Shown piece by piece: positions 2,451 to 24,806 of a stretch of DNA of 25,024 nt; within the stretch, counting starts at the first letter, position 1, and each line of letters starts with the position of its first letter. The DNA comes from a virus. The position numbers were made by a program, and so were the translations under genes. The notes below the pieces were generated by a model, which had not been told where the DNA came from, ran no database searches, and saw nothing but the letters and a program-made list of their open reading frames with translations. The stretch is from IMG/VR virus record IMGVR_UViG_3300044634_000444, positions 1 through 25,024 of that record; one strand, given 5' to 3'.

Positions 2451-3662
2451 TTGGCTACCGTTCGGATCCTCCGATCAACGACGGCCTCTGCGGTGCCGTC
2501 TTCGCTCGTCTCTGGGCAGATCGCCATCAATGAGGCAGACGGCAAGCTGTTCTATCGCAACGGCTCGGGGGTCGTCACGCAGCTGGCTACCGGAGGCGGC
2601 GGTGGCACTGAGCTATTCACCTATGCCACCACGGCCAACTTCCCGGGCACCGGGGCCACTACAGCCTTATACCTGAGCATCGCGTCCGGCCGCGTCTATC
2701 AATGGAACGGCAGCGTCTACTCTGAAGTGGGTCCGGTTGGTGGTGGCGGCTCTGGCCTCTCTTGGTCAAGCGTGCCAGCGTCAGCGACTGCGACAGGGAC
2801 GGCGGGGAGTATCGCGTATGACGGCTCGTTTTTCTACATCGCAACAGCAACGAACACATGGGCGAGGGCTTCTCTTTTGTGGCCGGAACCCGACGCTGCC
2901 GCATTCATTTCCGCCGCAGGAATCACTGACGCAACGCAAATATCTGCTATCCAATCGCTCGTTGTAGGTCTCAAGTCTGCGGGCGTCTGGTCAAAAATGC
3001 GCGCGATTTACCCGTTCATCGGCGGCACGGCATCGACTCACAAATGGAACCTCAAAGACCCGCGAGACTTGGACGCCGCCTATCGACTGGCGTTTTCAGG
3101 CAACTGGACGCACTCCGCAACGGGGGCCACTCCAGATGGCAGCACGGCATATGCCAATACGTTCGCCGTGCCATCCACGTTTTTTAGCGACTACACAGGC
3201 GCATACGGCCTGTATCTGCGCACAAACCCAGCATCTTCGACTGGGTATCGGGTGGACATGGGCGCTCAGTTTTACTCCGACCCAACGAGCAACCGATTTC
3301 TCCAGCATATTGGATCAACCGACGGCAATTCGTACTACGACTGGCGGAATCGCGTAACAGTTGCCACGTCGACCGTCGGTAGTGTAACTGGGTTCCATGT
3401 CGTCTCGCGGACAAGCACTTCGCTGATGACGGTCTACCGAAACGGCAATTCAGTGGCGTCCGGGGCATCGTCGGACATCACCACCGACCTACCAAACCGC
3501 CCGCTCTACATAGGCGCACAGAACCATACCGATGGCCCAAACTTGCACTCAAACCGCGAGCAGTCATTTGTGTTCCTGTCGGAATCTCTGTCTGGCTCGG
3601 AAGTAACTGCCGTCAATTCCGCCGTGCAGGCGTTCCAGACAACTCTCAGTAGGAGCGTCTAG
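2451..3662 (+). CDS. Tail-fibre protein with C-terminal LamG/concanavalin-like domain, 403 aa
   Basis: It begins at TTG 2451, immediately after the TAG of the previous gene and in the same frame. Residues 1-45 are the shared attachment module (MATVRILRS, PSSLVSGQIAINEADGKLFY). Residues 54-96 hold an FPGTG...ALYL...YQWNGSVYSEVGP block that recurs in the fibre at 3789. From about residue 175 the sequence changes to a jelly-roll type region with WSKMRAIYPFIGGTAS, a WNLKDPRD motif, and a typical LamG ending (HVVSRTSTSLMTVYRNG, RPLYIGAQN, then FVFLSESLSGSEV). Such concanavalin-like domains bind carbohydrate at the tips of phage fibres. Base use in the C-terminal half looks more AT-rich than in the shaft genes, as expected for an exchanged receptor-binding tip. 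Specificity cannot be read from sequence. Confidence 0.8.
   Translation: MATVRILRSTTASAVPSSLVSGQIAINEADGKLFYRNGSGVVTQLATGGGGGTELFTYATTANFPGTGATTALYLSIASGRVYQWNGSVYSEVGPVGGGGSGLSWSSVPASATATGTAGSIAYDGSFFYIATATNTWARASLLWPEPDAAAFISAAGITDATQISAIQSLVVGLKSAGVWSKMRAIYPFIGGTASTHKWNLKDPRDLDAAYRLAFSGNWTHSATGATPDGSTAYANTFAVPSTFFSDYTGAYGLYLRTNPASSTGYRVDMGAQFYSDPTSNRFLQHIGSTDGNSYYDWRNRVTVATSTVGSVTGFHVVSRTSTSLMTVYRNGNSVASGASSDITTDLPNRPLYIGAQNHTDGPNLHSNREQSFVFLSESLSGSEVTAVNSAVQAFQTTLSRSV
3651..3655 (+). promoter_or_regulatory. Shine-Dalgarno AGGAG for the 41-aa ORF at 3662
   Basis: AGGAG sits 6 nt before GTG 3662, within the last codons of the fibre gene. This is the main reason for accepting the short downstream ORF as a gene. 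Confidence 0.55.
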
Positions 3663-3787
3663 TGAGGGACTCCATCTTCCTCGCCGCTCTCCTCACGTTC
3701 TCGCTCGCAGCGGGCGTGACGGCGGCACGCACTACGGCGGCGTTCATGCGATGGGCTGTCCAGCGAACACTAGCAGTGGAGTGGTGA
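3662..3787 (+). CDS. Small predicted membrane peptide, 41 aa
   Basis: GTG 3662 shares a base with the TAG of the fibre gene (TAGTG) and has an AGGAG ribosome site 6 nt upstream. The frame runs 41 codons to TGA 3785-3787, one base before the ATG of the next fibre. The peptide starts MRDS and then has one hydrophobic stretch, IFLAALLTFSLAAGVTAA (residues 5-22), followed by a basic and aromatic tail (RTTAAFMRWAVQRTL). This is the pattern of a single-pass inner-membrane peptide or an uncleaved signal anchor. It fills nearly the whole gap between two fibre genes. A tiny holin-like or membrane-targeting role is possible, but no family is recognised and the length is below that of known pinholins. 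Coding status is supported by spacing and ribosome site only. Confidence 0.5.
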   Translation: MRDSIFLAALLTFSLAAGVTAARTTAAFMRWAVQRTLAVEW

Positions 3788-3788
3788 C

Positions 3789-4724
3789 ATGAGCATAACC
3801 TTCCCAGCATCGCCAACGTCCGGCCAAACTGCCGCGGTCAACGGCCGTACCTACTCTTGGGACGGCTACGCATGGAACTTGGTGGCTAACGTCCCTGGCC
3901 ACGCCGCGAGCCATGCCGCAGGCGGAAGCGACCCTCTGACAATCGTACATGAGTATGACACGCCCGCCAGTTTCCCCGGCACCGGCTCCAGCGCCGCCAT
4001 ATACATTGCAACGGATACAAGCCAGACTTATCGCTGGACTGGCAGTCAATACATGGAGACAGGCCCGCTTGGCAGCACCGTCTCCTTAACCTCGGCCTCT
4101 GATCTGAGCAACGGCACGCTGGCCGATGCGCGGTTGAGCGGCAACGTCACGCGGAATGAGAACCTGCGATGGGCGATGCAGACGACCAATACATCCATTG
4201 ATTGGCTACCACGCGGGCATGGAGTTATCGGTAGCGCGGCTGCTGCATCTACCGGATTAATCTTAGCTTTTTTCACCGCCCCCTATTCTTTCACAGCCAC
4301 TACGTTGACTTTCTGCACTGGAGGCACCGCTACGGCTGGTCTTTCACTGTGCCGGTTTGGTTTGTTTACCGTTTCAGAAACGATCACCGATGGTGCCACT
4401 GCCACTACGCCTGTTGTTACGTTGGTTGCTCGCACTGCCAATGACACAACAATTGGCAATATCACAAACACGCTGTATTCGCGCACCTTTGCTTCTGACG
4501 GCCTGCCAAATTCGTATAACCTAGTCGGCGGCACTCGCTACGCGGCTGGCCTTATGATTGTCGGCACTACTCCGGGCACTTGGCAGTGCGCCACGTTAAG
4601 TACCGGCGTAATCATGCGACTGCCCCCTATGGTTGCGGGGGTCGTAGGTTCTCTTAATGATCTGCCAACGGCACCGACAAGCGTCTCCAGCGGAACTTTT
4701 GTGCTTTACGGGAGAATTTCATGA
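3789..4724 (+). CDS. Tail-fibre protein, paralogue A, 311 aa
   Basis: The ATG follows the small ORF's stop by one base. The N-terminus (MSITFPASPTSGQTAAVNGR, then YSWDGYAWNLV, then GHAASHAAGGSDPL) is a fibre docking and His-containing shaft module different from that of the 1674/2451/5898 group. Residues 54-94 carry the FPGTG...IYIATDTSQTYRWTGS block shared with the 2451 fibre, then SNGTLADARL, the shaft motif repeated in the 5898 fibre. Residues from about 150 to 311 form a beta-rich tip (AFFTAPYSFTATTLTF, CRFGLFTVSE, LPNSYNLVGGTRYAAGLM) that aligns along its length with the next gene. The C-terminus is VLYGRIS. The tip-coding DNA looks less GC-rich than its surroundings. Receptor binding is inferred. 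Confidence 0.8.
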   Translation: MSITFPASPTSGQTAAVNGRTYSWDGYAWNLVANVPGHAASHAAGGSDPLTIVHEYDTPASFPGTGSSAAIYIATDTSQTYRWTGSQYMETGPLGSTVSLTSASDLSNGTLADARLSGNVTRNENLRWAMQTTNTSIDWLPRGHGVIGSAAAASTGLILAFFTAPYSFTATTLTFCTGGTATAGLSLCRFGLFTVSETITDGATATTPVVTLVARTANDTTIGNITNTLYSRTFASDGLPNSYNLVGGTRYAAGLMIVGTTPGTWQCATLSTGVIMRLPPMVAGVVGSLNDLPTAPTSVSSGTFVLYGRIS

Positions 4725-4762
4725 TTACCACTTATCTCGGCGTGATCGACAATGCCTATTAA
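4721..4762 (+). pseudogene. 13-codon relic of a fibre-associated protein gene
   Basis: The sequence ATGATTACC... at 4721 overlaps the stop of the fibre gene (ATGA) exactly as the intact gene at 5513 overlaps the stop of its fibre. It encodes MITTYLGVID and then NAY before TAA at 4760-4762. The intact gene begins MTTTYIGVID; the first 30 bases match at 24 of 30 positions. After ten codons the similarity stops and the next fibre's start (ATG 4752) lies inside the relic. This is best read as the 5' stub of a duplicated partner gene whose body was deleted. It may still act as a coupling mini-ORF, because its stop lies just after the next start codon and that start has no good ribosome site of its own. 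Confidence 0.7.
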
Positions 4763-5516
4763 TTTTCCAATAACTCCAACGCTCAACCAGACATCGGTGC
4801 AAAACGGACGCACTTTTGTCTGGAGCGGTACGGCGTGGAACTTTGTGAACAACATTATCGGCCACGGCGGCTCGCACGCCGCGAACGGCACAGACGCCGT
4901 ATTGTTGTCCGCCGCCCAGATAACATCCGGCACGCTCAATGAATCTAGGCTTCCTGCGTCTGCCGTGCTGGCGAGCAGTTTACTGGCATCTGTGAATTCG
5001 TCTACCGCAGTCATCGACACAATCCCGCGAAACATCCAAAACACAGCTATCACTTTGACTAGTGGCAGTATGGTTCTGACGTTTTTCACGCCACTAGTGA
5101 CGCGGACAATCACTCAAATCACGGCAGGCTCCGGCAGCGTTGCAGGGGCAGGGCTGACGCTCGCGAGGCTTGGGCTATACACCTGGGACGAAACGAACGC
5201 CACGCTGGTGGCCGCAGTGGCGAGCGACACCACGCTTTTTACTGCCGCCAACACAGTTTATACGCGATCTCTGTCTACGGGCGGTGGCCTGCCGTCCAGC
5301 TACACGCTAACCGCTGGGACTCGGTATGGGTTTGCGGTGTTAGTCACCGGAACAACCATGCCGTCCCTCATCGGTTTGAATAGCTCGGGCTTTAACTTTG
5401 CAACTATATCGCCGCGCACAAATGGACAGCGGCCATCTCTGACAGACCTATCGACCTCTTTTGGGGTGGGGAATATATCCGTGACTACGAATTTGTTTTG
5501 CGCGAGGTTCTCATGA
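4752..5516 (+). CDS. Tail-fibre protein, paralogue B, 254 aa
   Basis: It is a tandem paralogue of the fibre at 3789: N-terminus MPINFPITPTLNQTSVQNGR, then FVWSGTAWNFV and GHGGSHAANGTDAV; a short shaft with ITSGTLNESRL; and a tip with VLTFFTPLV, LARLGLYTWDE and GLPSSYTLTAGTRYGFAVLV, each matching the first copy in order. It lacks the FPGTG...YRWTGS block of copy A, which accounts for part of the length difference. The C-terminus is NLFCARFS. The start ATG is inside the 13-codon relic and is preceded only by a weak GGCGTGATC stretch, so translation probably depends on reinitiation. The tips have diverged widely while the N-termini stay close, as expected for two fibres docking at similar sites but seeing different receptors. 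Confidence 0.8.
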   Translation: MPINFPITPTLNQTSVQNGRTFVWSGTAWNFVNNIIGHGGSHAANGTDAVLLSAAQITSGTLNESRLPASAVLASSLLASVNSSTAVIDTIPRNIQNTAITLTSGSMVLTFFTPLVTRTITQITAGSGSVAGAGLTLARLGLYTWDETNATLVAAVASDTTLFTAANTVYTRSLSTGGGLPSSYTLTAGTRYGFAVLVTGTTMPSLIGLNSSGFNFATISPRTNGQRPSLTDLSTSFGVGNISVTTNLFCARFS

Positions 5517-5857
5517 CGACCACATACATCGGCGTGATTGACGGCATGCACACATGGGAGGTTCGCGACGAGAGCGGCACCTTGGTCGGCATGAACCAGC
5601 AGGCCGTGGACGACTCTGTACCGGCGAGCGTCTCCGCTCGCCAGATACGCCTATGGCTGCTGCGTCAGGGCATTAGCCTCGCACAGGTCGATGCGGCCAT
5701 CGACGCCATCCCCGACCAGCTACAGCGAGACTCAGTGCGGGTGGAGTGGGACTACGCGCCTTACATAGAGCGGTCACACCCCATGCTGCCACCAATTGCC
5801 CAGGCTCTGGGGCTAACCGACATCGACGCGGCTTTTCGGGAGGCGGCGACGATCTAG
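5513..5857 (+). CDS. Fibre-associated small protein (possible fibre chaperone), 114 aa
   Basis: I chose ATG 5513, which overlaps the fibre's TGA (ATGA) and has GAGG upstream; the in-frame ATG at 5498 would add only five residues that are a shadow of the fibre's end. The N-terminus (MTTTYIGVIDGMHTWEVRDE) is followed by VSARQIRLWLLRQGISLAQV, then WDYAPYIERSHPML, and ends LGLTDIDAAFREAAT. This order, a helix starting with S-x-R-Q-x-R-L-x-L, a W-[ED]-Y-A motif and LGLTDxxxDxxFxxA, is what I recall for small proteins encoded just after tail-fibre genes in many phages, often regarded as assembly or chaperone partners. That role is inferred from position and resemblance. A truncated copy of this gene lies after the first fibre of the tandem pair, at 4721. 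Confidence 0.65.
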   Translation: MTTTYIGVIDGMHTWEVRDESGTLVGMNQQAVDDSVPASVSARQIRLWLLRQGISLAQVDAAIDAIPDQLQRDSVRVEWDYAPYIERSHPMLPPIAQALGLTDIDAAFREAATI

Positions 5858-5897
5858 AGGGGACAATAGTCTTTAGGCCCACTTTCGCAGGTTTTCC

Positions 5898-8681
5898 ATG
5901 CCCCCTCCACGCCTCAAACGCAGTAATACCTCCGGTACTGTCCCTGCGTCATTAGAGGACGGGGAGATCGCCATCAACCAGGCGGATGGCCGGCTGTACC
6001 ATCGCACTGTCGCTGGCGGCGTGTCATCTTTCACAGCCGCTCCAAGCGATGGGAGCATAACGACTGTATCGATAGTAGACGGCAGCATCACCACGGCGAA
6101 GATTGCGAACTCGGCTGTCACGTATGCCCAAGTCCAGAACGTGTCTGCGACCGACAGGCTGCTTGGTCGCTCCTCCTCTGGGGCTGGTGTTGTCCAAGAA
6201 ATTATCTGCACAGCTTTTGCTAGAAGCATCTTGGATGATGTAGACGCTGCGGCAGGCAGGGCCACACTGGGGCTTGGCACTGCTGCCACGGCTGCAAGCA
6301 CTAGCTTTGCGGCTAGCTCCCACACACACGGGGCCAGCGAGATCGTCTCTGGCACCCTCGCAGACGCCCGCCTTTCTACCAATGTAGTGCTTACTGGCGA
6401 CTCACGCCTGACAAACGCTCGCACGCCAACCGCACATAGCAGCACCCACGCCGCTGGGGGAACAGACCCGTTGGCTCTGGCCATATCGCAGGTGACGAAT
6501 CTGCAGACCACGCTGGACGGCAAGCAGGCGTCGGGTTCCTACGCCCCTGCCACGCACACCCACACAGCCGCCCAAGTGTCCGGGCTCGCGGCCGTTGCGA
6601 CGAGCGGCTCCTACGTAGACCTAACCAACAAGCCTGCGATCCCTGCTGCCACCACCAGCGCTACGGACTTGGTATCTGGCACGCTTGCGGATGCTCGCCT
6701 GACGGCCAACGTAGTCCTGACGACAGACTCCCGCCTGACTAATGCCCGCACACCAACCGCCCATACGCACGGCAACCTGACCAACGCTGGGGCTATCGGG
6801 ACAACGTCAGGCGTGCCAATCATTACGACCACCTCTGGCGTTCTGGCTGCTGGCACATTCGGCACCGCAGCCGGGAGCTTTTGCCAAGGGAACGACTCTC
6901 GCCTGTCCGATGCCCGTGCGCCTACCACACACAACCACACTGCCTCACAGATCACAGACTTCGCCACGCAATCAGCTTTGTATGGCCCAGTGACCAGCGT
7001 CAACGGCCAAGCGGGGGCTGTAACCGTCTCCGGTGTCACTGACGGCGACAAGGGTGACATCACTGTCTCGGGCACCGGGGCGACATGGACGATTGACAAT
7101 AGCGCCGTCACATACGCCAAGCTCCAGAACGTCTCTGCGACCGACCGGCTCTTGGGCCGCTCCTCTGCGGGGGCCGGTGTGGTGCAAGAGATAGCCTGCA
7201 CAGCATTTGCCCGTAGTCTCTTGGATGATACAGACGCAGCAACCAGTCGAACAACCTTGGGGCTGGCCACTGTTGCAGCGACGGGCTCCTATGTCGATCT
7301 CTCCAACAAGCCTACTATCCCGGCAGCTACTACCAGTGCCACAGACTTGGTGTCTGGAACCTTGGCCGATGCTCGCCTGACGGCTAACGTGGTGCTTACA
7401 GGCGATGCGCGGCTTGCCAATGCCCGCACTCCAACCACTCACAAGGCGAGCCATGCAGTCGGCGGCGTGGATGCTTTGTCCCCCGCGGACATCGGCGCTG
7501 TCCCCTCGTCCGGCGGAACACTCACTGGCACTCTTACGCACGCCGCGGCGCAGACGTTTGTCTCTGCAGGTGGGTCTGCCGCGAGCCCGGCGTACTCGTT
7601 TACGGGTGATACCAACACCGGGATGTTTTCTTCTGCCGCCGACACACTTGGTCTGTCCACTGGTGAAGTGCAGCGGCTGCAGATCGATGCCAATGGGAAT
7701 GTGGGCATCGGCAACAACGCATTGAGTAACGTCCGCCTGACCGTGGCCTCCACGCTGACGAACGTGACCGGGTTCGGCATGCAGTGCAACACCGTCTCTG
7801 CAGCAACGAGCAATGGGGCCTATAGCGTATTTGGATCGCAAGCACAGGTAACCCACAACATCACTGCCGGTCTATCGAATACCGGCGTCTCCCGCGCGAT
7901 GTTTGTGTCTTGTGCCCGCAACAACGGGTTTTCGACAGACGCGGGGAGTCTAGGGTTTATACGCGGAATGGAGTTTCAATACGGCCACGGCAACACAAAT
8001 GCTGCGATAAGCCCCACAACGACACAGGTAATCGGACTGCAAATGGTGCCGCTGTTGGGCCCCGGAACGATGACAGAACTCTATGACATCTTTGTTGGCG
8101 CGCCCGCGCACGGCACAGGCACCATCGGAAATCATTTCTCCATATTCCAAGCAGCGGCGACCGCCAAGAACTATTTCGCTGGTCACGTTGGCATCGGGAC
8201 GACCACGCCCGCAACCAAGCTGGATGTCTCTGGTTCTATCCGCGCTTCGTCAGGCATCTTGTTCGGCGCTGACACGGCTGCGGCTAACACGCTGTCGGAC
8301 TACGAAGAGGGCACGTGGACTCCGGCGTTCACTACCGGCTTTTCGTCCGTGACCGTAACTGAGGCCCTCGGCCGGTACATCAAAATAGGCAAGACAGTCA
8401 CCGCTCATCTTCGGCTCAGCGTGAGCGCGTTCACGGGCAACGGAATGCCTGTTGGTGTTTCGCTGCCGTTCACTGCGGCGACTTCGACCTTTGGCGGTGG
8501 ATTCGTTCACTCCAGCAATGCCTTTCTCGCCACCGCCACGGCCCCGCCCATGGTAGGTGGGCCGGATTCGGGATCGTCCGGCGCTGTTTTAAGCAAGGCG
8601 ATTGGTGAAGGGTTCACGGCTAGCGATTTCAAAACTCCAAGCTGGACGATAGGGCTCACAGTTCTTTACACGGCAGGGTAA
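5898..8681 (+). CDS. Long repeat-rich tail-fibre protein, 927 aa
   Basis: The largest fibre of the cassette. Residues 1-36 are the shared attachment module (MPPPRLKRSNTSGTVPASL, EDGEIAINQADGRLYH). A long shaft follows with several copies of SGTLADARL...NVVLT...RLTNARTPT and four HxH motifs (HTHG, HTHT, HTHG, HNHT); in T4 gp37 HxH motifs coordinate iron along the fibre axis. A 48-residue block is present twice, at residues 71-118 and 401-448. Further on are two NVGIG-type motifs (near nt 7700 and 8190), the latter in the form HVGIGTTTPATKLDVSGS, then LSDYEEGTWTPAF (near 8296), which in many phage fibres precedes the C-terminal domain. No S74 chaperone catalytic domain is evident. The remaining ~120 residues are the likely tip. 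A 40-nt gap precedes it, with only an AGG at 5889-5892 as ribosome site. Confidence 0.85.
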   Translation: MPPPRLKRSNTSGTVPASLEDGEIAINQADGRLYHRTVAGGVSSFTAAPSDGSITTVSIVDGSITTAKIANSAVTYAQVQNVSATDRLLGRSSSGAGVVQEIICTAFARSILDDVDAAAGRATLGLGTAATAASTSFAASSHTHGASEIVSGTLADARLSTNVVLTGDSRLTNARTPTAHSSTHAAGGTDPLALAISQVTNLQTTLDGKQASGSYAPATHTHTAAQVSGLAAVATSGSYVDLTNKPAIPAATTSATDLVSGTLADARLTANVVLTTDSRLTNARTPTAHTHGNLTNAGAIGTTSGVPIITTTSGVLAAGTFGTAAGSFCQGNDSRLSDARAPTTHNHTASQITDFATQSALYGPVTSVNGQAGAVTVSGVTDGDKGDITVSGTGATWTIDNSAVTYAKLQNVSATDRLLGRSSAGAGVVQEIACTAFARSLLDDTDAATSRTTLGLATVAATGSYVDLSNKPTIPAATTSATDLVSGTLADARLTANVVLTGDARLANARTPTTHKASHAVGGVDALSPADIGAVPSSGGTLTGTLTHAAAQTFVSAGGSAASPAYSFTGDTNTGMFSSAADTLGLSTGEVQRLQIDANGNVGIGNNALSNVRLTVASTLTNVTGFGMQCNTVSAATSNGAYSVFGSQAQVTHNITAGLSNTGVSRAMFVSCARNNGFSTDAGSLGFIRGMEFQYGHGNTNAAISPTTTQVIGLQMVPLLGPGTMTELYDIFVGAPAHGTGTIGNHFSIFQAAATAKNYFAGHVGIGTTTPATKLDVSGSIRASSGILFGADTAAANTLSDYEEGTWTPAFTTGFSSVTVTEALGRYIKIGKTVTAHLRLSVSAFTGNGMPVGVSLPFTAATSTFGGGFVHSSNAFLATATAPPMVGGPDSGSSGAVLSKAIGEGFTASDFKTPSWTIGLTVLYTAG
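6108..6251 (+). repeat. 48-codon internal repeat of the long fibre, copy 1
   Basis: It encodes NSAVTYA, QNVSATDRLLGRSS, GAGVVQEI and FARSILDD in order. The same order occurs in the second copy at 7098-7241. Amino-acid identity is high, while many third codon positions differ, so the duplication is old or kept by selection on the protein. Confidence 0.8.
7098..7241 (+). repeat. 48-codon internal repeat of the long fibre, copy 2
   Basis: Second copy of the block at 6108-6251: NSAVTYA, QNVSATDRLLGRSS, GAGVVQEI and FARSLLDD. Both copies are followed by a short R-x-TLGL segment, suggesting that the repeating unit is a shaft subdomain. Confidence 0.8.
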
Positions 8682-8683
8682 CT

Positions 8684-8932
8684 ATGGCACTTACGCAAAG
8701 TTCAGAAGTAGACCGGGTGGAAGTGGTGGGCGTGTATCGCTCCGTCCAAGTGCGAGAGTCCATCATCGTCCGCGACGGTGACAAGGAGATTGCAAGCAAC
8801 TTCCATCGCCACATCATCAATCCCGGTGATGATTACTCGGCCGAAACTCCGCTTGTCCGGGCCGTATGCGCGGCCGCGCATACTGAGGAAGTGGTTGCCG
8901 CATACCAAGCCAGCCTGGGCGAGCAGGCGTGA
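8684..8932 (+). CDS. Small phage protein of unknown function, 82 aa
   Basis: ATG 8684 lies two bases after the fibre's TAA, with AGGGTAA just upstream as ribosome site. The product starts MALTQSSEVDRVEVVGVYRS, has a beta-rich N-terminal half (VQVRESIIVRDGDKEIA), a FHRHIINPGDD segment, and a helical C-terminus ending TEEVVAAYQASLGEQA. From memory this is a common small protein beside tail genes of marine and freshwater phages, with no known role; its fold looks like a small structural or assembly protein. The stop is TGA followed by C, and the same frame continues to look coding for 32 more codons. Confidence 0.75.
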   Translation: MALTQSSEVDRVEVVGVYRSVQVRESIIVRDGDKEIASNFHRHIINPGDDYSAETPLVRAVCAAAHTEEVVAAYQASLGEQA

Positions 8933-9129
8933 CCGTGCTGGCAGACTGTTCTGAACCGAACGCCAGAACTGCTCCAGGCGTACCAAGACCGCACTTCCGG
9001 GGGCAAACACCAACAGCGCGTGTACGCCTAGCCGCCCTCGCAGGCCACTAGCCTATAGAGGAAAGCCCAGTCTTGGAGGGCCATTCCAACGCTGTCCGCT
9101 GCTGCCCCCCCGGAGCCTGAGCCTGACGT
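8933..9129 (+). other. 197-nt spacer with in-frame coding-like sequence interrupted by stops
   Basis: There is no ORF with a normal start and good ribosome site here. In the frame of the upstream gene, after its TGA, 32 codons read QTVLNRTPELLQAYQDRTSG and then GKHQQRVYA to TAG 9029-9031. Then come 8 codons to TAG 9056-9058, then 24 codons (including SWRAIPTLSAAAPPEPEPDV) to a TGA at 9131-9133 that overlaps the next ATG. Codons of the first segment have high GC3, as in neighbouring genes. A GTG-started 40-codon alternative at 8929-9051 in another frame has poorer codon use. GCCCTC at 9034-9039 can pair with GAGGGC at 9076-9081, and AGGC can pair with GCCT around 9042-9054. The spacer may be a decayed gene, a readthrough extension, or a structured untranslated segment. 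Confidence 0.4.
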
Positions 9130-10272
9130 ATGACTCTCCTGACTTACTACGACGCGGTCGAACATCTCATCACCAGCAGTTCGGGTGGCCCGCAGGATGC
9201 GGAGCAGACCGACATCCGCACATCCATCCAGCGCGCCTACAGCGAACTCTCAACGATCCGTGACTGGAACTACTACCAGACTCACGGCCGGATTCGGTTC
9301 TCCATCAACTGGTACGGCTCGGTTACCTACAGCCAAGACACAAGGTTCTTCGACCTGTCGTCTGGGGACGCATTCCCGACCAACTCGGTGCTGTCGCGCA
9401 TGCGACTCAACAACACGGTCGCCAAGATCGCCACCCGCGTCAGCAGCACCCGACTGCTGTGCGACCCGATCCTGACTCCATCCAGCGATTTCCTCAATCC
9501 CACAGCAGCCACGCTGTACCAAGACACCTTCCCCCTGCCGTCCGACTTCCGGTCGCTGGACTCCCCAATCGACCATGTCGCTTGGACGCGGTTCATCTAC
9601 GTGTCGGCCGACCAAGCGATGAAGCTGGAGAACGCTAACAACCTTGCAGGACCGCCGCATGCGTGGACGGTCATCAAGGATCCGCATGGCACTGGGTGGG
9701 CGATTAAGGTCGTTGGGTATCCGGTCGCCAACTCCAACTTGGACTTCACGTATCGCCGCCTGCCGCGCCGCCTGCGGATCTCGGGCCATGAGGCTAGCTC
9801 GCGTCAGGGCACGGTGACCATCGCTGGCACGGCCGTCACTGGCACGGGCACTGCCTTCACAGCCGCCATGGTTGGTTCGGTCATGCGAGTGGGCACCGCC
9901 ACTGATTTCCCAGGCAGCGATGGATCGCTTCTCCCCTACCAAGGAGAGGCAGTTATCGCATCAGTCGCCAGCGCCACCTCTTGCACGTTGGCCACCTCCC
10001 TTACGGCAACGGGGGCGAAGTACCTCGTCACCGACATAGTGGACATGTCGCCTGGGATGAATAACGGATTCTTGTCCTGTGCTGCGTATTGGCTGGCCCG
10101 CACGCGCAACACCAAGCCGGACAACGCCTTCGCCATGTACCAGCGGGACTTGCGTCTGGCCATGGAGTCTGATGCCCTCACTCCGTTCCAGCAGCCGCAG
10201 CGAGTGATCTTCGATGCTATGGCGTGGAGGACGCCGCTGCAGGCCGACAACTTCGATGGAGGTAATCCATGA
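9130..10272 (+). CDS. Probable head-tail adaptor / neck protein, 380 aa
   Basis: The N-terminal half is helical and aromatic (LTYYDAVEHLI, DIRTSIQRAYSELSTIRDWN), which is typical of phage adaptor proteins with a packed helical bundle that docks under the portal. The centre reads QDTFPLPSDFRSLDSPIDHV, and a Thr/Gly-rich small beta domain follows (about residues 225-300: GTVTIAGTAVTGTGTAFTAA, MVGSVMRVGT). The C-terminus returns to helix (LARTRNTKPDNAFAMYQRDL). Helical bundle plus inserted beta domain, and position directly before the nozzle gene, match the P22 gp4 / T7 gp11 class functionally, but no signature proves it. It ends NFDGGNP, sharing the DGG tail seen in two fibre genes. Its stop overlaps the next start (ATGA at 10269-10272). 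Confidence 0.55.
   Translation: MTLLTYYDAVEHLITSSSGGPQDAEQTDIRTSIQRAYSELSTIRDWNYYQTHGRIRFSINWYGSVTYSQDTRFFDLSSGDAFPTNSVLSRMRLNNTVAKIATRVSSTRLLCDPILTPSSDFLNPTAATLYQDTFPLPSDFRSLDSPIDHVAWTRFIYVSADQAMKLENANNLAGPPHAWTVIKDPHGTGWAIKVVGYPVANSNLDFTYRRLPRRLRISGHEASSRQGTVTIAGTAVTGTGTAFTAAMVGSVMRVGTATDFPGSDGSLLPYQGEAVIASVASATSCTLATSLTATGAKYLVTDIVDMSPGMNNGFLSCAAYWLARTRNTKPDNAFAMYQRDLRLAMESDALTPFQQPQRVIFDAMAWRTPLQADNFDGGNP
10258..10262 (+). promoter_or_regulatory. Shine-Dalgarno GGAGG for the ORF at 10269
   Basis: GGAGG in the codons of the adaptor's C-terminal DGG lies 6 nt before ATG 10269. It fixes the start of the 91-residue hub N-terminal ORF. Confidence 0.6.
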
Positions 10273-10544
10273 TCGTCATCGACAAATGGGCTGGGCTGGT
10301 CACAAACGCCTCGCCGTATTCCATACCTCCCGGCTCAACGGTACAGCAAGTCAACCTGCAGTGCTTGGTGCCGGGGAAGCTCACTGTGCGCGCTGGCCTG
10401 TCGCCCATCACGTTTACTTCTGCCGACTCCACGGCATCTCCTGTTGTGTCAGCCTTCCGATACCAGAGCGGCACACAAGAGCATCTCGTCTACCAAGACT
10501 CGGCCGGACGCATCTACTCCTCCGTGAAGACAGGCAGCGCCTAA
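10269..10544 (+). CDS. N-terminal part of tail hub/nozzle protein, separate ORF, 91 aa
   Basis: The product starts MIVIDKWAGLVTNASPYSIP and contains VNLQCLVPGKLTVRAGL (about residues 28-44), then VVSAFRYQSGTQEHLVYQD and RIYSSVKTGSA. The pattern 'N-x(n)-PGKLxxRxGL' is the usual beginning of T7 gp12 / P22 gp10-like nozzle proteins, where it forms the first strands of the platform before the beta-propeller. Here the frame ends at TAA 10542-10544, and the following ORF, which carries the rest of such a protein, starts at the overlapping TAATG one frame back. The two products probably form one functional hub, either as two chains or through a rare frameshift. No classic slippery heptamer is evident near the junction. 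Confidence 0.7.
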   Translation: MIVIDKWAGLVTNASPYSIPPGSTVQQVNLQCLVPGKLTVRAGLSPITFTSADSTASPVVSAFRYQSGTQEHLVYQDSAGRIYSSVKTGSA

Positions 10545-13129
10545 TGACCTATCTGGCCCAGCGTCGATCCGGCCAAGTCGTCTCAATCTCAATAACCACT
10601 GGCGGTTCCGGGTACACCGCTCCACCTTCAGTGAGCTTTTCTGGCGGCGGCGGCACGGGCGCTGTCGGACTTGCCCACATGGCCGGTACGCAGGTTGAGT
10701 CTGTTGTTATCACCAATGGTGGAACAGGCTACACATCCGCCCCCACGGTCACTCTCTCTGGCAATGCCTTGGCGTCCGCGAGCGTCTACGCGGGATCTAT
10801 CATCCCGGCGTCGTTTGTCCGCTCCCGCTTCAATGATCTGTACGTGTTCGATGGCATGGGCCGCGGCCTGCGCTGGGATGGCTCCGCAGGCACCATGCAG
10901 CCAATCGGGTTGCAGAAGCCCTACAAGGGACCGGCAGTCGCTATCGCAAGTTCATCAATGGCTGGCTATGTGGATGCGGTCAATGTCGTCAGCCCCGGCA
11001 ACGGCTACTCGGTCGCTCCGACAGTCACGTTCTCTGGCGGCTCCCCAACCACCACTGCAGTGGCGCGTGCGGATGTCGCTGGCGGAAGGGTTGTCGGCAT
11101 CACCATCTCGGAGCCTGGGGCGGGCTACACATCTGCTCCAGCCGTGTCCCTGAGCGTCAGCAATGCGGCTGGTGCGACGTTCTCTGTTGGCGTCTCTGGA
11201 TCTGTGCAGGCCGTAACTGTGGTCAATGGCGGCACGGGCTATACCTCCACTCCCACGGTGGTGTTCTCCAGTGCGCAGGGTCTGACCGGCGCGAACGCTG
11301 TCGTCACCGTATCGGACACTGGCGTTATCTCGGCCGTAGACCTTCGCTCTGGCGGCAAGGGAGCGACTGGCGCTGTGACTGCTTCGCTGACTGGAGGCGG
11401 TGGTGCGGGTGCCGTCCTGTCTGTCGGCATGCAGTACGGGGTAGCGGCGGTGACGGTCACCAACGGCGGGACCGGCTTTCTCTCGCCGCCCACCATCTCA
11501 TTTCAGCCCGACCCCACCGACGATACAGCCTCTGCAGCCGCGGCCACTGCGGCGGTGTCCGGCGGAAGCATAACGAAGGTATCTGTCTATGGCGCTGGCA
11601 GCTACGCCTTGCCGCCGACTGTGGCGCTTGGCGACTACAACGCCACTGCCACCGCGACTGTCTCCAACGTCCTGCGCGGCAAGTATAAGTGCGCGATCCG
11701 ATACATCGACTCCACGCCAGAGAAGTTCCGCGGCCCGATCAGTTCTTCGATTTCGGAACTGGTTGAGGTTGACGTTCAAAACGGTGCGTCCTCTTTGACC
11801 TGGACGCTTGCGCACGCGGGGCTGGACGACCGTGTCACTGCCGTAGAGTTGTGGCGCACCACCTCCGACCAAAGCGTCCTGCTGTTCCGCGTGGCGAAGA
11901 TCCTGCGGTCGGCCGGGAATTTTACTGGCACGTTCACCGATACGTTCACTGACGAGCAGCTGTCTGATGCGGAGCGCGATGGCTACGGCTTGCTGCCTGT
12001 GACGCTGCCTAGCGGCCAGCTGAACGCCCGCCGGTTTGGAGTGCCTCCCGGGAATTTCTCAGTGGCGTGCATGTTCCAAGACCGCTGCTGGCTGGCCGTG
12101 GATACGACCGGCGAGAAACCCAACAGCCTCTACTTCTCAGAGGTGGACGAGCCAGAATCCATCCCCTTGGAAAATGAGCTTGTTGTCCAGGAGAACGCTG
12201 GCGACTCCGATGCAGTGGTGGCCCTCATCCCTCTTGGCTCATTTCTAGTCGCCGCCCAGTCCCGGCACCTATACAAGCTGAACTACGTGGCCCAGCCAGT
12301 GCTGGATGCCAGCATCATGCTGGTGGCCTACCGCGGCGTGCTGAACAGCCGCTGCTGGGATGTGATGGGCGGCGTGGCTTTCATTGCGGATAGCTACGGG
12401 ATGTACGTATTTGACGGCCAGGGCGACCAGCCTATCTCCGTGCCGGTGGACAACTACTGGCGTGACGGCATCATCGACTTCTCAAAGTCCGCGCTGTTTT
12501 TTGTGCGGGCCGACTTGGCCACCAAGGTTGTCCGATTCTTCTACTGCAACTCCACAGACTCCTCGCCCGCCCGCGCGCTGTGCTACTCGGTAACTACCAA
12601 GTCTTGGTGGGACGAGCAGTACGCAGTGCCACTGACTGCAGCGGCACCCTATGCAGTTGGCGGGCAGCAGGGGGTTGCGTACGCCGCGTCTGGCTTCGTA
12701 CGCATGGCTGGTTACTCGGACAACGGCACGGCCATCCCGTACAGCTTCCGTTCCGGCAACATGGAGCTAGTGAATGAGGACAGCAGGCAGGCCGTGAGCG
12801 TACTGTACACGCCGACTACTGGCGATGCCCCGCTCTCGCTGTCTCGCTACTTCAACGGCTCCGATACCCCGCGTCCGAATGCCGTTGCCAGTGATCGGGG
12901 GGATGGGTTTGTCCCAGTCGTCCCGGGCGCGGAGTCCGTTTTGAACATGAAACGCACCCGCTCTACTCTCGGGGAGGCGAGCGGTGTTGCACGCGCCATG
13001 TTCAGCGGCGGCAATGAAGAGCGCTCTGCCGGTGCCGACAGGCATGTCGCCGTAGCGTTTGCCGGTACTCAGTCGTCGTCCGCGAACACTCCTTCCATAC
13101 ACACGGTCGTTGTGGAGGGTGCGAAGTAG
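10544..13129 (+). CDS. Tail hub/nozzle beta-propeller protein with GxGYT repeat insertions, 861 aa
   Basis: ATG 10544 overlaps the previous stop (TAATG). The open frame extends upstream to 10214, but that part only shadows the two preceding genes. Residues 11-372 contain eight units of about 30-45 residues with the core GxGYTxxPxV(T/S)xSGG; the last three are degenerate. Between units two and three (residues 91-129) lies NDLYVFDGMGRGLRWDG, a strand pattern of the hub itself. After residue 378 come KYKCAIRYIDSTPEKFRGP, VELWRTTSDQSVLLFR, NSLYFSEVDEPESIPLENEL, SFLVAAQSRHLYKL and VAFIADSYGMYVFDGQGDQ, typical of P22 gp10 / T7 gp12-like propeller proteins that close the tail and gate DNA. The C-terminal ~130 residues are a further beta domain. 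Location: tip of the short tail, holding fibres. Confidence 0.7.
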   Translation: MTYLAQRRSGQVVSISITTGGSGYTAPPSVSFSGGGGTGAVGLAHMAGTQVESVVITNGGTGYTSAPTVTLSGNALASASVYAGSIIPASFVRSRFNDLYVFDGMGRGLRWDGSAGTMQPIGLQKPYKGPAVAIASSSMAGYVDAVNVVSPGNGYSVAPTVTFSGGSPTTTAVARADVAGGRVVGITISEPGAGYTSAPAVSLSVSNAAGATFSVGVSGSVQAVTVVNGGTGYTSTPTVVFSSAQGLTGANAVVTVSDTGVISAVDLRSGGKGATGAVTASLTGGGGAGAVLSVGMQYGVAAVTVTNGGTGFLSPPTISFQPDPTDDTASAAAATAAVSGGSITKVSVYGAGSYALPPTVALGDYNATATATVSNVLRGKYKCAIRYIDSTPEKFRGPISSSISELVEVDVQNGASSLTWTLAHAGLDDRVTAVELWRTTSDQSVLLFRVAKILRSAGNFTGTFTDTFTDEQLSDAERDGYGLLPVTLPSGQLNARRFGVPPGNFSVACMFQDRCWLAVDTTGEKPNSLYFSEVDEPESIPLENELVVQENAGDSDAVVALIPLGSFLVAAQSRHLYKLNYVAQPVLDASIMLVAYRGVLNSRCWDVMGGVAFIADSYGMYVFDGQGDQPISVPVDNYWRDGIIDFSKSALFFVRADLATKVVRFFYCNSTDSSPARALCYSVTTKSWWDEQYAVPLTAAAPYAVGGQQGVAYAASGFVRMAGYSDNGTAIPYSFRSGNMELVNEDSRQAVSVLYTPTTGDAPLSLSRYFNGSDTPRPNAVASDRGDGFVPVVPGAESVLNMKRTRSTLGEASGVARAMFSGGNEERSAGADRHVAVAFAGTQSSSANTPSIHTVVVEGAK
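10574..11659 (+). repeat. Eight GxGYT-type repeats in the hub protein
   Basis: The units begin near codons for ISITTGGSGYTAPP, VVITNGGTGYTSAP, VNVVSPGNGYSVAP, ITISEPGAGYTSAP, VTVVNGGTGYTSTP, VDLRSGGKGATGAV, VTVTNGGTGFLSPP and VSVYGAGSYALPP. Units 1-2 span about 10574-10780 and units 3-8 about 10976-11659, with hub sequence between. Spacing varies, so this is a protein repeat rather than a DNA tandem array. Confidence 0.85.
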
Positions 13130-15018
13130 TGTTTACGCAAAGCATGCCGCAACTGGCGCAGGCTCTGTCCGGCGCTCTCCCAGAGGCCGCGCTGCGGCAG
13201 CTGATGCAGGCTCTCGGTAACTGCCAGCAGCCGCTCTCGCACCGCGGTGCGGTCAATATCCAGCCCCCAAACACCACAGGCGCTGGTGGTCTGGCGCGGC
13301 CAGGAGTGTGGAGAACATCCGACTACCGCGATCTGCTGCCTACCGCTGGCCAAGACACGTTCATTGATGTCGCTGGTGACACTTACAACAACACCAACAA
13401 CACCAACAACTACGACGGTCACCAGTTCAATTTCCCGATCAACCAAGACTTCAACTACAACAACTACTTCGGTGGCGACACGTTCAACGTCGCAGGCAAC
13501 AGCACGTTTGAAAACACCACCATCAACAACACAACCACCGAGAACCTCAACACCACCAACCTTAATGTTGACTACATCAACAACACCTACGTTGGTCAAG
13601 CCGGTCGCGATGGCGCGAGCGGGCGCGACGGGCGCGATGGCATAACCACCGTCCTTTTTGGCGGCGGTGGTTTCGTTCCGATGCAGCTGCCTTTCACTAA
13701 CGGCCGCACGCGCATTCTGAAGAGCGTGCTTGTCAGCGGCACAGTAGGTGTGCCGCACGCGACCAACGCCTACGTGTTCGACAAAGCGGTGACGGTTGGC
13801 ACCACGGACAGAAACAAGGAGTTTACGGTCACGGGAACCGTGGAAGTTCCGACTGTCGAAAGCGCAAGCATCAGTGCCATCAGCGCCTCCGGTACGGTAA
13901 CCCTTCCGACCGTCACGGGCGGTTCGTTATCGGGTGCCACAGCGAGCGGCAACATTTCCTACGACACGTACCCGACCGCTACGTGCAGCACCATCACTGG
14001 CACGGTATCTCTTCCTACTGGCGGGTCGCTGTCAGGAGCGACGGCTGACGGCACCATTTCCTACGACACCTACCCAACAGCGACCTGTGGCACTGTGTCA
14101 GGAACCGTCTCGCTCCCAACCACTGGGGCACTCGCTGGCGCAACGGCCAGCGGCACAATCACGTACGACATATACCCGACCGTCAACGTGGGATCCGTGA
14201 CTGGATTGTGCTCGGTGCCGACGACGGGATCTTTTACCGCAACGCCAGAGGGCATCAAAGCAGACGCTTCACTGGGTTCTCTGGCAGGAACGGTCACCAT
14301 CCCGATTCCGACCGGAGGTTACTTGGACGCCTCCTGCAAGTTAGTGCTTACAACCACCAACCAGACCTACAACGTGACCTTCACGGGCACGCCCGGGGTG
14401 ACCATTAGCTCGCAGGGAAGTGTTGCGGGCAGTGTTTTGCTGGGCGGTGAAACGAGCCGTAGCCTTACTATCTTTGGCCCATCCGTAACTCTGAACAAGT
14501 CCACCGCAACCGTCACGCCGACGTTCACGGTCGCAGGTGGTACGGTCGCCCTGTCTGGCTCCACATCTCGCGCGTTGTCAATCACAACGCCAACCATCTC
14601 GCTCACCAAGACAAATGCCACCGCCGCGTTTTCTGCTCCAGTTTCCGGTGGTGTTGTTTCGCTGACTGGCTCTACAGCCACCGCCGTCTCCATCACCACG
14701 CCCACCGTCACACTCACAAAGTCCTCCGGGTCCGCATCTGCCTCGCTCACGGTGAATGGCGGCACGTTCACTCCAACGAGCGGCAGCACCACATCGACAG
14801 TTACGGTCAGTGCTACTGGAGCCACCGTCACGCTAACGGCGGGCACCATTGATGTGCCCGCGTCCTTAAGTGGTTCAATAGCAGTCAAGGAGCCTACGGG
14901 CGAAGGGACTCTGAAGGACGACGAGGTGTCACTGGATGAAGAGCAGGAGACAAAGAAACTGGACATAACAGTAGTGCAAAAGGCAGACTTTCTCGTTTAT
15001 TTGAGGCCGCGCATCTAA
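13129..15018 (+). CDS. Repeat-rich low-complexity virion protein, 629 aa
   Basis: It starts at GTG 13129, which shares a base with the hub's TAG; GGAGGG at 13114-13119 is the ribosome site. Residues 1-75 are helical. Residues 86-155 are extremely Asn/Thr-rich (TYNNTNNTNNYDG, ENTTINNTTTENL). Then come a short collagen-like GRDGASGRDGRDG (159-171), a FVPMQLPFTNGRTRILKSVL segment, three 34-residue repeats (264-364), and three further Ser/Thr/Val strands of about 40 residues with S(L/I)TTPT(I/V)(S/T)LTK. The C-terminus (from about 590) is acidic and then KKLDITVVQKADFLVYLRP. This architecture suits an extended fibrous or decoration protein attached to the tail. There is no catalytic motif. Position between hub and lectin-like protein supports a tail-associated role. 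Function unknown. Confidence 0.75.
   Translation: MFTQSMPQLAQALSGALPEAALRQLMQALGNCQQPLSHRGAVNIQPPNTTGAGGLARPGVWRTSDYRDLLPTAGQDTFIDVAGDTYNNTNNTNNYDGHQFNFPINQDFNYNNYFGGDTFNVAGNSTFENTTINNTTTENLNTTNLNVDYINNTYVGQAGRDGASGRDGRDGITTVLFGGGGFVPMQLPFTNGRTRILKSVLVSGTVGVPHATNAYVFDKAVTVGTTDRNKEFTVTGTVEVPTVESASISAISASGTVTLPTVTGGSLSGATASGNISYDTYPTATCSTITGTVSLPTGGSLSGATADGTISYDTYPTATCGTVSGTVSLPTTGALAGATASGTITYDIYPTVNVGSVTGLCSVPTTGSFTATPEGIKADASLGSLAGTVTIPIPTGGYLDASCKLVLTTTNQTYNVTFTGTPGVTISSQGSVAGSVLLGGETSRSLTIFGPSVTLNKSTATVTPTFTVAGGTVALSGSTSRALSITTPTISLTKTNATAAFSAPVSGGVVSLTGSTATAVSITTPTVTLTKSSGSASASLTVNGGTFTPTSGSTTSTVTVSATGATVTLTAGTIDVPASLSGSIAVKEPTGEGTLKDDEVSLDEEQETKKLDITVVQKADFLVYLRPRI
13387..13410 (+). repeat. 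AAC/ACC trinucleotide run
   Basis: Eight codons alternate AAC, AAC, ACC and encode N-N-T three times (NNTNNTNN). It is a short coding microsatellite at the start of the Asn/Thr-rich region and could change length by slippage in steps of whole codons. Confidence 0.8.
13918..14220 (+). repeat. Three 34-codon repeats in the 13129 protein
   Basis: Each unit reads G(S/A)L(S/A)GATA(S/D)G, then I(S/T)YDxYPT, then a Thr/Val stretch ending in VSLP or CSVP. Units start near residues 264, 298 and 333. Third codon positions differ between units, so this is not a very recent expansion. Confidence 0.8.
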
Positions 15019-16253
15019 TGGCGTGTCCATGTTGCGAGACAGGCCGGTGCTGCAATGGTGCCACTTGCACTGCTACGGGAGCCTCTCAGTGCGCTGCCAC
15101 TTCCGGCACGTTTACAGCGGGCGGGAATTGCACGCAGTACGCATGCACCGCCCCCGTAAACCAGCCTTCAGTCTCCCCGCAATGCACTCTTGCGGATGCG
15201 TGCCAGTGCAGTAATGCAGGTAAGATTCTGCACGCCCCCTACACTACATGCAATTGTGTCACGCTGACTTCGGGCGGTGTCTTTAACGGCGGGTGCCCAA
15301 GCTACTACTGCAACGCATGCGACACCGCCACGGGTGTCTGCGTTCTCACCTGCCCTGCTCCTCGTTCCTGCTGTGCCGGAACGTGCTGTCCGCTGTCGCA
15401 GAGATGCGATAATGCCAGCGGGAACTGTGTGAACAAGTGTACGACCGGCGCGTTTTGCGCTGGCACGGGTTCGGCCTACGCCTGTTGCACATCTGGACAG
15501 AAGTGCTGCGGGTCATCTGGATGTCTTCCTGCATCGACCACCAGCTTCACCGTCGATGTCACCACAAACGAGTGGCTGAACACTGGCGTGACGCTTACGG
15601 CGGGTTCAGCCGTGGCGATCTCGGCCACGGCGAGTTGCGACCGCTGCGCTGCCGGGACAGTGGAGTGGGCGGGAGCCGGTTCGACTGCCACGCCCAATGG
15701 CGTGCCTGCTGCTGACTGCTCCAATTCGAACAGCGTGGTGTTTGCTATTTGCCACATGGCTCTCATTGGCAGGATTGGCCTAACAGGCACCCCCTTCTTG
15801 GTTGGCTCAAGTTACTCCGGGTCGCCTGGGGCGGGCCTGTTGTACCTGCGCCAGAACGATTCAAATACTGGAGACAACCGCGGAACTTTCACCGGGACCA
15901 TCACACCGGACCCCTGCCCCGGCTACACGCCCGCAGCCATTGGTGATCCAATCGTTTACGCAGCCGGGGAGGAACCGCCACCGCCACCCGGGCCTGGGGC
16001 GGAAGTCAAAAGGCTCCTGAGCCTCGCGGGAATTGTGGCATCCCCCACCTGCAGCTGTAACGCGCGGGCTGCACAGATGGACGCTTGGGGGGAATGGGAG
16101 TGCCTGACGCGCCTGCCTGAGATCATCGGCTGGCTCAAGGAAGAGGCCGAAAAGCGGGATTTGTGGTTTTTCCAACCCGCTGGGTACGCCTTGGTTTTGG
16201 CCGCTATTTCCCTGTCGGCACTGAAACGAGCCATTCGGGGCAATAGCAAATAG
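15018..16253 (+). CDS. Cysteine-rich virion protein with LecA(PA-IL)-like lectin domain, 411 aa
   Basis: The start ATG overlaps the previous stop (TAATG), with GAGG 11 nt upstream. Residues 1-169 hold 32 cysteines, with several CC pairs (CPCCETGRCC, CCAGTCCP, CCTSGQKCCG) as in disulfide-knotted granulin- or toxin-like folds. Residues about 176-296 resemble the galactose-binding LecA/PA-IL family: TNEWLNTGVTLTAGSAVAI, then MALIGRIGLTGTPFLVG, then LYLRQNDSNTGDNRGTFTG, where ND and DN fall where LecA's calcium ligands lie. After a poly-Pro linker comes a C-terminal block: SLAGIVASPTCSCNARAAQM, GEWECL, IIGWLKEEAEKR and a short hydrophobic stretch (GYALVLAAISLSAL). I recall this C-terminal block from planctomycete phage or host proteins. 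A host-surface-binding role is likely; chemistry and disulfide state are inference. Confidence 0.7.
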   Translation: MACPCCETGRCCNGATCTATGASQCAATSGTFTAGGNCTQYACTAPVNQPSVSPQCTLADACQCSNAGKILHAPYTTCNCVTLTSGGVFNGGCPSYYCNACDTATGVCVLTCPAPRSCCAGTCCPLSQRCDNASGNCVNKCTTGAFCAGTGSAYACCTSGQKCCGSSGCLPASTTSFTVDVTTNEWLNTGVTLTAGSAVAISATASCDRCAAGTVEWAGAGSTATPNGVPAADCSNSNSVVFAICHMALIGRIGLTGTPFLVGSSYSGSPGAGLLYLRQNDSNTGDNRGTFTGTITPDPCPGYTPAAIGDPIVYAAGEEPPPPPGPGAEVKRLLSLAGIVASPTCSCNARAAQMDAWGEWECLTRLPEIIGWLKEEAEKRDLWFFQPAGYALVLAAISLSALKRAIRGNSK

Positions 16254-24000: not shown

Positions 24001-24806
24001 CGGGCATGTCGATGCGTGCGTTGAACCGCGGCGGGCAAGCTACGGAACAGAACTTCACGCCGGAACACATGCGCAAGAAGGCGAGCATCCCGCTGCCTAA
24101 TGAGTTTCCGCTCTTGGGCCTGCCAGCCGACTCGCCGCTTCGACGCTCGCTGTCGAACATCGACTTCTTCTACTCGGCCCCGGTCAACCTCATCACTCCC
24201 GGCACGGGCAACAGCCTACTGGACAAGCTGGGCAGCAGCGCAAAGAGCAGCTTGCTCAACGTCCTTGGTCAGAGCAACCCGCTGATCAAGGGTCCGCTGG
24301 AGATGCTGACCAATCGTCAGTTCTACTCTGGCCGCGAGATGTCAGACTTGTACTCCATGCTGGAGCAGCCCCTGTCTGGGTTCGGGCTTGGGCCGCTGGG
24401 CCGCGTGGCAGAGCAGGTCATCTCCAACGCCCCTGGCGGCTCGCGAGTGCTGGGCCTGACCCGTCAGCTGATGGACGACCGCATGCCATTGGCACAACGT
24501 CTACCCAAGGTGGGCTTCAACACCATGACGGGCTTCTCCCTTGAGGACATTGACGTTGAGCGGACCAAGCAGCAGGCGGCTAGGCAGATGCTCAACAAGA
24601 TGCTGGAGTCCACCCCGGGCGTACGCACGTACGAAAACGTCACAGTGCCAGAGGATGTCCTGCGGACGATGCCCGAGGAGCAGCGCAAGATGTACCTGCT
24701 CTACAAGATCGTCCAGTCCGAAGCCGCCAAGCGGGCACGGGACAAGAAGAAAGCTGAGTTGGCACTGGACCCCCTCCAAGTTCTAGGGGTTACCAACCAG
24801 TTCTAG
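21024..24806 (+). CDS. Giant internal virion / DNA-ejection protein, 1260 aa
   Basis: TTG start with a strong GGAGG 5 nt upstream. The N-terminal ~100 residues (FDIYDPFGDLARQAQQGIFP) lead into a Gly/Ala-rich hydrophobic region (LATAGGSGLAGLGWILDTPG, about residues 64-83) and FLDPLTYASLGLNQFLGKGA. The middle is charged and helical, with aromatic clusters (LALLWPSRYSRDAYSGSFSA). Near residues 948-975, TQVDYRPEAFTDFERDVMKR is followed by AFPFYSYTKGITPLI, a motif I recall from very large internal or 'polyvalent' phage proteins. After residue 1060 are LLNVLGQSNPLIKGPLEMLT and more helices, ending EAAKRARDKKKAELALDPLQ. Long helical proteins here in podoviruses are injected and form the trans-envelope channel (T7 gp16 role). 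A tape-measure role is the alternative. The last 24 nt overlap the integrase gene. Confidence 0.65.
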   Translation: MPRSPLFDIYDPFGDLARQAQQGIFPGGDEELDPLGVAPLGTRKLQLADLMPEEEKSSLLHNLATAGGSGLAGLGWILDTPGAMVRGGLSGGPMKALSALWDTTDERVDGRELLRQYGMVGEDDTWGNFAGGLASEVFLDPLTYASLGLNQFLGKGAKTAAGAVAQKAGLLEDFGVYARNTLGKGEREAMREATARSLLESIPQGSARDAAMRDFLAAGGKDELLDQPLARMNRVSIPGFTTDATDFYGKSVGDWAAKTGDALGEGLMTNPYTGRVARGLQAAFDPNVLGFVDRDKQLDAQTIMAARRQRGRADRLDLAGLQYDANKELRAAGSTLNDSDLSDAMRLVFEGGDAPENFRDYLDLPAVKTLMDYVGGYRAEAVNQAERLGLPLKEFQSRTGGDWFPRQQLGFDKPQMPQWPEGTVPPERLKKQYSQGSRPVTFDDNLARGRDEAYDVMGQSDTLNRMSTDAELQQALRGAKNEDVRGILERWFQDNIAPRRSDPTNWHVDPASGEWSPADDFIEGVDGNIVPSRASGPSHDLYGWMDAMDDEGNYLYEAPQLPADHPLSRQARALREQMQRQTAAGETARYVSVDGKTVRPGNDELAQQLAEVLAQVPEAQREAWRDTMHTKLADFVRGMDPQHAETGLPIFGQNTFNELARYVVGRGRNEVNAQEMLKILKRQVENTPANAVTGGVNYAPADALKALGLTGDTAPEVLRKTLGVDSLDNVSFNKKYIDEWAKTLERGKTPPELSDLAQSYDNFTKRFKALALLWPSRYSRDAYSGSFSAATKGGYSPSDWWTGTQINRGEYSDLLRKIKDLPRYKDLPTDEAKLRQFLVEQGAEGLGTSTANDELLSGAGNASLRGMYPGATAPDTESLVDRGRRATWREWLNPFSISTASGNTNPILEAGDRAAQFTDSGNRYGSYLTFIRKGHAPNEAARLANLTQVDYRPEAFTDFERDVMKRAFPFYSYTKGITPLIADELVNNPAGLTGMSMRALNRGGQATEQNFTPEHMRKKASIPLPNEFPLLGLPADSPLRRSLSNIDFFYSAPVNLITPGTGNSLLDKLGSSAKSSLLNVLGQSNPLIKGPLEMLTNRQFYSGREMSDLYSMLEQPLSGFGLGPLGRVAEQVISNAPGGSRVLGLTRQLMDDRMPLAQRLPKVGFNTMTGFSLEDIDVERTKQQAARQMLNKMLESTPGVRTYENVTVPEDVLRTMPEEQRKMYLLYKIVQSEAAKRARDKKKAELALDPLQVLGVTNQF

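Follow-up and report, generated by a model that had tools for sequence, protein, structure and literature searches.

A partner gene remnant between two fibre genes of different tip lineages points to insertion of a second fibre in a phage genome

The two-fibre locus

In the 25,024-nucleotide stretch of viral DNA analysed here (the window), two fibre genes lie in series, separated by a 13-codon stub of a small partner gene, of which an intact copy follows the second fibre. With moderate confidence we read this as the insertion of a second fibre, whose tip comes from another lineage, between fibre A and the partner gene by way of the conserved 30-base start of the partner, with the stub left behind; the stub would couple translation of the two fibres, and the one partner would aid both fibres, or fibre A would need none. 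The features concerned are as follows.

3789-4724, plus strand: fibre A gene, 311 aa, with a docking-type N-terminus and an A-lineage tip domain at about 4188-4721
4710-4714, plus strand: GGGAG, a strong Shine-Dalgarno-like match inside the end of fibre A that would serve the stub (computed -7.4 kcal/mol)
4721-4762, plus strand: stub, consisting of partner gene codons 1-10 and three chance codons, starting in the fibre A stop (ATGA) and overlapping the fibre B start by 11 nt
4721-4750, plus strand: left copy of a 30-bp imperfect direct repeat (partner start), 24/30 identical with 5513-5542; the alignment to L087 continues to 4750
4752-5516, plus strand: fibre B gene, 254 aa, whose N-terminus is of the docking type and whose tip domain, at about 5001-5513, belongs to another lineage than that of fibre A
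5513-5857, plus strand: intact partner gene, 114 aa, of which residues 2-31 form an N-terminal element of three strands and residues 39-114 a helical domain at the C-terminus
5513-5542, plus strand: right copy of the 30-bp repeat, the start of the intact partner

The coordinates of the four genes, as given in the first-pass annotation, are all correct, and the stub and the intact partner both start within the stop codon of the preceding fibre, in the form ATGA. The same arrangement of fibre A, stub, fibre B and partner was found in five further IMG/VR contigs from other samples and metagenomes, four of which show zero base differences across 3601-5900 (2300 bases), while the fifth begins at 4491 and has zero differences over the covered 4491-5900 (1410 bases). 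Fibre genes are repetitive and mosaic, which could favour an assembly artefact fusing two of them, but because five contigs from other samples are identical over the covered region the arrangement is not an assembly error, and we consider such an artefact next to impossible. A scan of the viral collection for the stub-fibre B junction pattern matched five contigs only, all of the same phage population. At L083 (1-5855) the four genes are arranged as in the window, and to the left of approximately window position 2739 its sequence differs.

Tips of fibres A and B

The first-pass annotation had described the locus as a tandem duplication of a fibre and partner unit in which the first partner was subsequently deleted. 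The homology of the two fibres from N- to C-terminus on which it drew was borne out, with 31% identity over 297 columns (130 bits, E 5e-41; BLASTP with composition correction off) and a local score of 342 against a mean of 57 and a maximum of 104 for shuffles of fibre B, and the C-terminal parts alone also align, scoring 209 versus a shuffle maximum of 86. Such end-to-end homology is what an in situ tandem duplication would leave, and a real case was found at L139 (4088-5897), where the tips of two fibres are sisters (support 100), the second fibre starts 2 nt after the first, and only the second is followed by a partner. In the window, however, the tips are not sisters: the fibre A tip falls within a 10-row clade of A-type tips (support 100/100) and shares 77-79% identity with that of L024, whereas the fibre B tip lies outside this clade and has at most 54% identity to any other tip, and a tree with A and B as sisters was rejected under the model used, both with 28 tips (p-AU 7.4e-8) and with 68 tips (p-AU 4.8e-6). 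Judged by their sequences, tips A and B are separate lineages, and as L139 demonstrates that the test can detect a real duplication, the proposed tandem duplication did not hold up; we regard it as very unlikely, also with regard to the stub, which is closer to the partner start of another phage than to that of the window itself (see below). Several B-type fibres end in the same 12 bases as fibre B (12/12).

The start region of fibre A (3787-3925) has 92.8% identity to the fibre of L087 and L008, and because the DNA of its tip has only 69% identity to the L008 tip, the fibre A tip may itself have been swapped. Directly before fibre A, window positions 3668-3795 have 94.5% identity to L058 5893-6020, which is far above the surrounding genes, and this is perhaps a recombination site. 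Neither Pfam nor PHROGs yielded a significant domain in fibre B, and fibre A had weak partial matches only; PDB sequence searches with the fibres returned nothing; among cultured phages, two relatives of the tips were found.

The stub is a remnant of a partner gene

The stub translates as MITTYLGVIDNAY followed by a stop codon (13 codons), and the intact partner starts with MTTTYIGVID. As the first-pass annotation had noted, the stub and the start of the partner are identical at 24/30 bases, and the runner-up among all 30-mers on both strands of the window reaches 21/30; the match of the stub to the partner start of L047 is higher still (28/30). Among relatives, an intact partner gene follows the A-type tip with the same 4-base stop/start overlap wherever such tips are complete, and with the 28/30 match to L047 this identifies the stub as a true remnant of a partner start. 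That it was never part of a longer gene, and is a short peptide in its own right or an ORF that arose by chance, could be argued from the 28 of 66 distinct tips that are followed by a version of the partner element shorter than 80 aa. We find this highly improbable, however, as no intact version that has the whole element is shorter than 36 aa, the stub covers a single strand of the three and its final codons read across the fibre B start, and the same 13-codon ORF, following fibre A where there is no fibre B, is absent from all A-type relatives examined. Because only strand 1 of the three-strand partner element is kept, the stub is probably not a working partner.

The surviving partner and the single-fibre site

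The nearest backbone relatives of the window, L087 and L008, have 98.6% identity to it over the downstream region 9139-15164, and at the corresponding place they contain one A-type fibre and an intact partner. Window positions 4113-4750 correspond to 8178-8815 of these relatives, and 5511-6280 to 8784-9559, so the two targets are adjacent and slightly overlapping; the window thus looks, from these alignments, like the L087/L008 arrangement with approximately 790 bp of extra sequence at the start of the partner, bounded by the 30-bp repeat. The whole records of L007, L008, L026 and L047 contain one tip each, and the window's twin contains two.

The surviving partner appears from its sequence to be a mosaic of an A-lineage body and an L006/L047-like end. 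Its body (5581-5740) has 87-96% identity to L008 and 60-87% to L047, its end (5791-5857) has 91% identity to L006/L047 and 69% to L008, and the breakpoint is supported by permutation (p 2e-4). In a tree of the whole partner protein the window partner groups with L047 and L006 (95/98), which both have B-type tips, and this grouping can be explained by the C-terminal end of the mosaic.

These observations suggest the following history. The ancestor would have had one fibre with an A-type tip and one partner, as in the close relatives, and fibre B would have been spliced in between fibre A and the partner by recombination within the conserved 30 bases with which partner genes begin, in what we infer to be a single insertion step. 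The stub would be the left end of the recombination site, and the partner now located after fibre B would largely be of the lineage serving A-type tips. We favour this insertion before an A-lineage partner because L087 and L008 resemble an empty site, the partner is mosaic, the single-tip records exist and the end of fibre B matches B-type fibres.

A deletion is possible, though we think it rather unlikely: an array of fibre A, partner, fibre B and partner, produced when a whole fibre B plus partner cassette was gained or when two phages underwent unequal crossover, may have lost most of its first partner, by a cut running from codon 11 to the fibre B start. Fibre-partner-fibre orders are known, with a fibre starting 18 nt past the partner stop in L026 and approximately 24 nt past it in L051, and since tips and partners reassort (in L024 and L026 A-type tips are paired with other partner types), a deletion from a four-gene array is conceivable. 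There is also a possible precedent around 4567-4700 of L144 and L145, where L145 has lost 94 bp from a related small partner, which is intact in L144 and L146 and of which L145 retains the first 13 codons; L145, however, differs upstream too and is rearranged elsewhere, and could be a mixed assembly. Against a deletion, the surviving partner has an A-lineage body and not that of a B-type partner, and no relative with the four-gene order was found among the loci examined, which also did not have fibre B at another location. Of the duplication and subsequent partner deletion proposed in the first-pass annotation, it is therefore the recognition of the stub as a partner remnant that stands, while the deletion is doubtful, given the A-lineage partner body and a nearest relative resembling the empty site. 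Recombination is so extensive here that the surviving partner may have been a mosaic before it left the donor, and insertion is then not uniquely supported over deletion. More generally, the fibre island is variable between conserved borders, with relatives differing in the number, order and N-terminal type of their fibres.

Translation of fibre B

Fibre B has a single possible start, located soon after an in-frame stop, and its ATG is not preceded by a Shine-Dalgarno sequence (-1.7 computed). If the stub is disregarded, the distance from the fibre A stop to the fibre B start is 27 nt; in reporter work on bacterial and archaeal gene pairs, translational coupling was nearly gone beyond approximately 20 nt (PMC10666635). 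The stub may therefore couple the translation of fibre B, which lacks a ribosome site of its own and is separated from the fibre A stop by those 27 nt: one message would give both fibres, with the stub taking over the ribosome from fibre A at the ATGA and handing it on to the fibre B start through the 11-nt overlap. A counterpoint is that the fibres of some relatives (L043, L051) also lack a Shine-Dalgarno sequence. The predicted RNA fold of the stub region is not unusual (z 0.70). Gene overlaps are enriched among subunits of complexes (PMC10666635).

Tip fold and known fibre systems

The model of the fibre B tip (pLDDT 93.9) matches the tip domain of the Douge central fibre with Z 19.0 (162/176 residues, rmsd 2.4 Å, VIA-align) and the Bxb1 tail tip (9d93) with Z 18.4 (166/176 residues, 2.4 Å), and through its sequence homology to tip B, tip A is predicted to have the same fold. 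The whole-domain fold is thus shared with the tip of the Douge gp20 central fibre (8zdp/8zdq, PMC13033339) and with Bxb1, although the Douge tip has 13% identity to that of fibre B and continues in the same chain into another C-terminal domain, whereas here the gene ends after the tip. A recombinant tip-CTD fragment of Douge binds glycans of its mycobacterial host (PMC13033339), and by analogy tips A and B may bind receptors or glycans. Because both tips are predicted to have a glycan-binding-type fold, the likely gain from a second fibre would be two receptor specificities at once. The locus would then exemplify a route by which a phage keeps its receptor-binding fibre while acquiring a second one, with the conserved start of the partner gene serving as splice point.

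Exchange of a fibre together with its cognate chaperone as a module between distant phages has been described for the Alteromonas phages V22 (gp26/gp27) and A5 (gp8/gp9), of which the A5 fibres are active without their chaperone and the V22 fibres require it (PMC10579305). The present case is a variant of such fibre-module exchange, and differs from V22 and A5 in that no Pfam chaperone match was detected for the partner, whose size goes down to approximately 36 aa in relatives, and in that a single partner follows two fibres; the more general lead is the small protein element associated with the tips.

The partner family

The window partner did not match the curated Pfam tail fibre chaperone families, its two sub-threshold matches being to unrelated families, and PDB sequences gave weak matches only. 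Its residues 36-114 match the PHROGs profile phrog_6034 (E 7.9e-19); this family and phrog_14311, both of unknown function, match the C-terminal domain of the window partner, and their proteins match from approximately residue 27-30 onward only. In the structure model (pLDDT 93.1) strands at residues 2-9, 12-18 and 24-31 are followed by helices. When the model was compared with solved structures with a view to a chaperone fold, the best neighbours were helix-turn-helix proteins and helical regulators, with a best Z of 4.1 for the C-terminal domain only. These Z values of 4.1 or lower were taken to reflect a common helical arrangement and not to indicate a function. The pattern scan used did not detect relatives of the partner in the genome collection; such relatives are located directly after tail genes in Sinorhizobium phage phiM9 and Pseudomonas phage HHBS14_1. 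In phiM9 (L256 2761-3760) two related proteins follow in series after the tail collar gene, the first of which has the C-terminal domain of the partner.

Behind 59 of 66 distinct tips in relatives lies an ORF with the partner element (58 by pattern search, and L114 by eye), and the overlap of tip and partner is ATGA in the window and in most relatives. The shared element comprises approximately 30 residues in three strands, of the form TTYIGVIDGLHTWEVRDESGVVIGYNQ. A short form of 37-65 aa, lengths which include alternative upstream starts, is present in 28 of the 58, and the others carry the helical domain. Short proteins of approximately 36-60 aa with the three-strand element directly follow the tip stop in L113, L125, L137, L148, L170 and others, and eight short partners scanned against PHROGs gave weak matches only (E 0.03 or worse), none of them significant and none to phrog_6034 or phrog_14311. 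Across 28 partner-element sequences the third codon position varies most (0.45 vs 0.23 and 0.14) and the median dN/dS is 0.25 over 274 usable pairs, a pattern of variation as expected of a protein under constraint; the subset of ten short forms shows a weaker contrast (0.55 vs 0.39 and 0.39), partly since some rows are out of register.

It is plausible that the surviving partner serves both fibres. Tips without a recognisable partner also exist (L139 tip 1, L157, L162 and the cultured phages LonelyBoi and DSL-LC01), thus tip A may not need one, and by analogy fibre A could work without a partner. We tentatively suggest, as a possibility we would not rate highly, that the conserved unit consists of a receptor-binding tip and a three-strand microprotein of approximately 30 residues at its stop codon, acting as a minimal cap or folding partner for which the helical domain is optional, and that in the window what is left of the microprotein gene has been retained as a translational bridge of 13 codons, setting the ratio of the two fibres. 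The locus in any case exposes a small and largely unannotated element which accompanies a widespread tip domain, and which is a candidate for a minimal fibre partner.

Other genes in the window

The tail gene at 9130-10269 had no match among cultured phages, and the gene at 21024-24803 had one weak partial match. A candidate frameshift near 10540 turned out to be an ordinary TAATG overlap of two genes. Window positions 15018-16253 encode a 411-aa protein, for which there was no PHROGs match, and which has a cysteine-rich N-terminal half that is unusual in a phage structural region.
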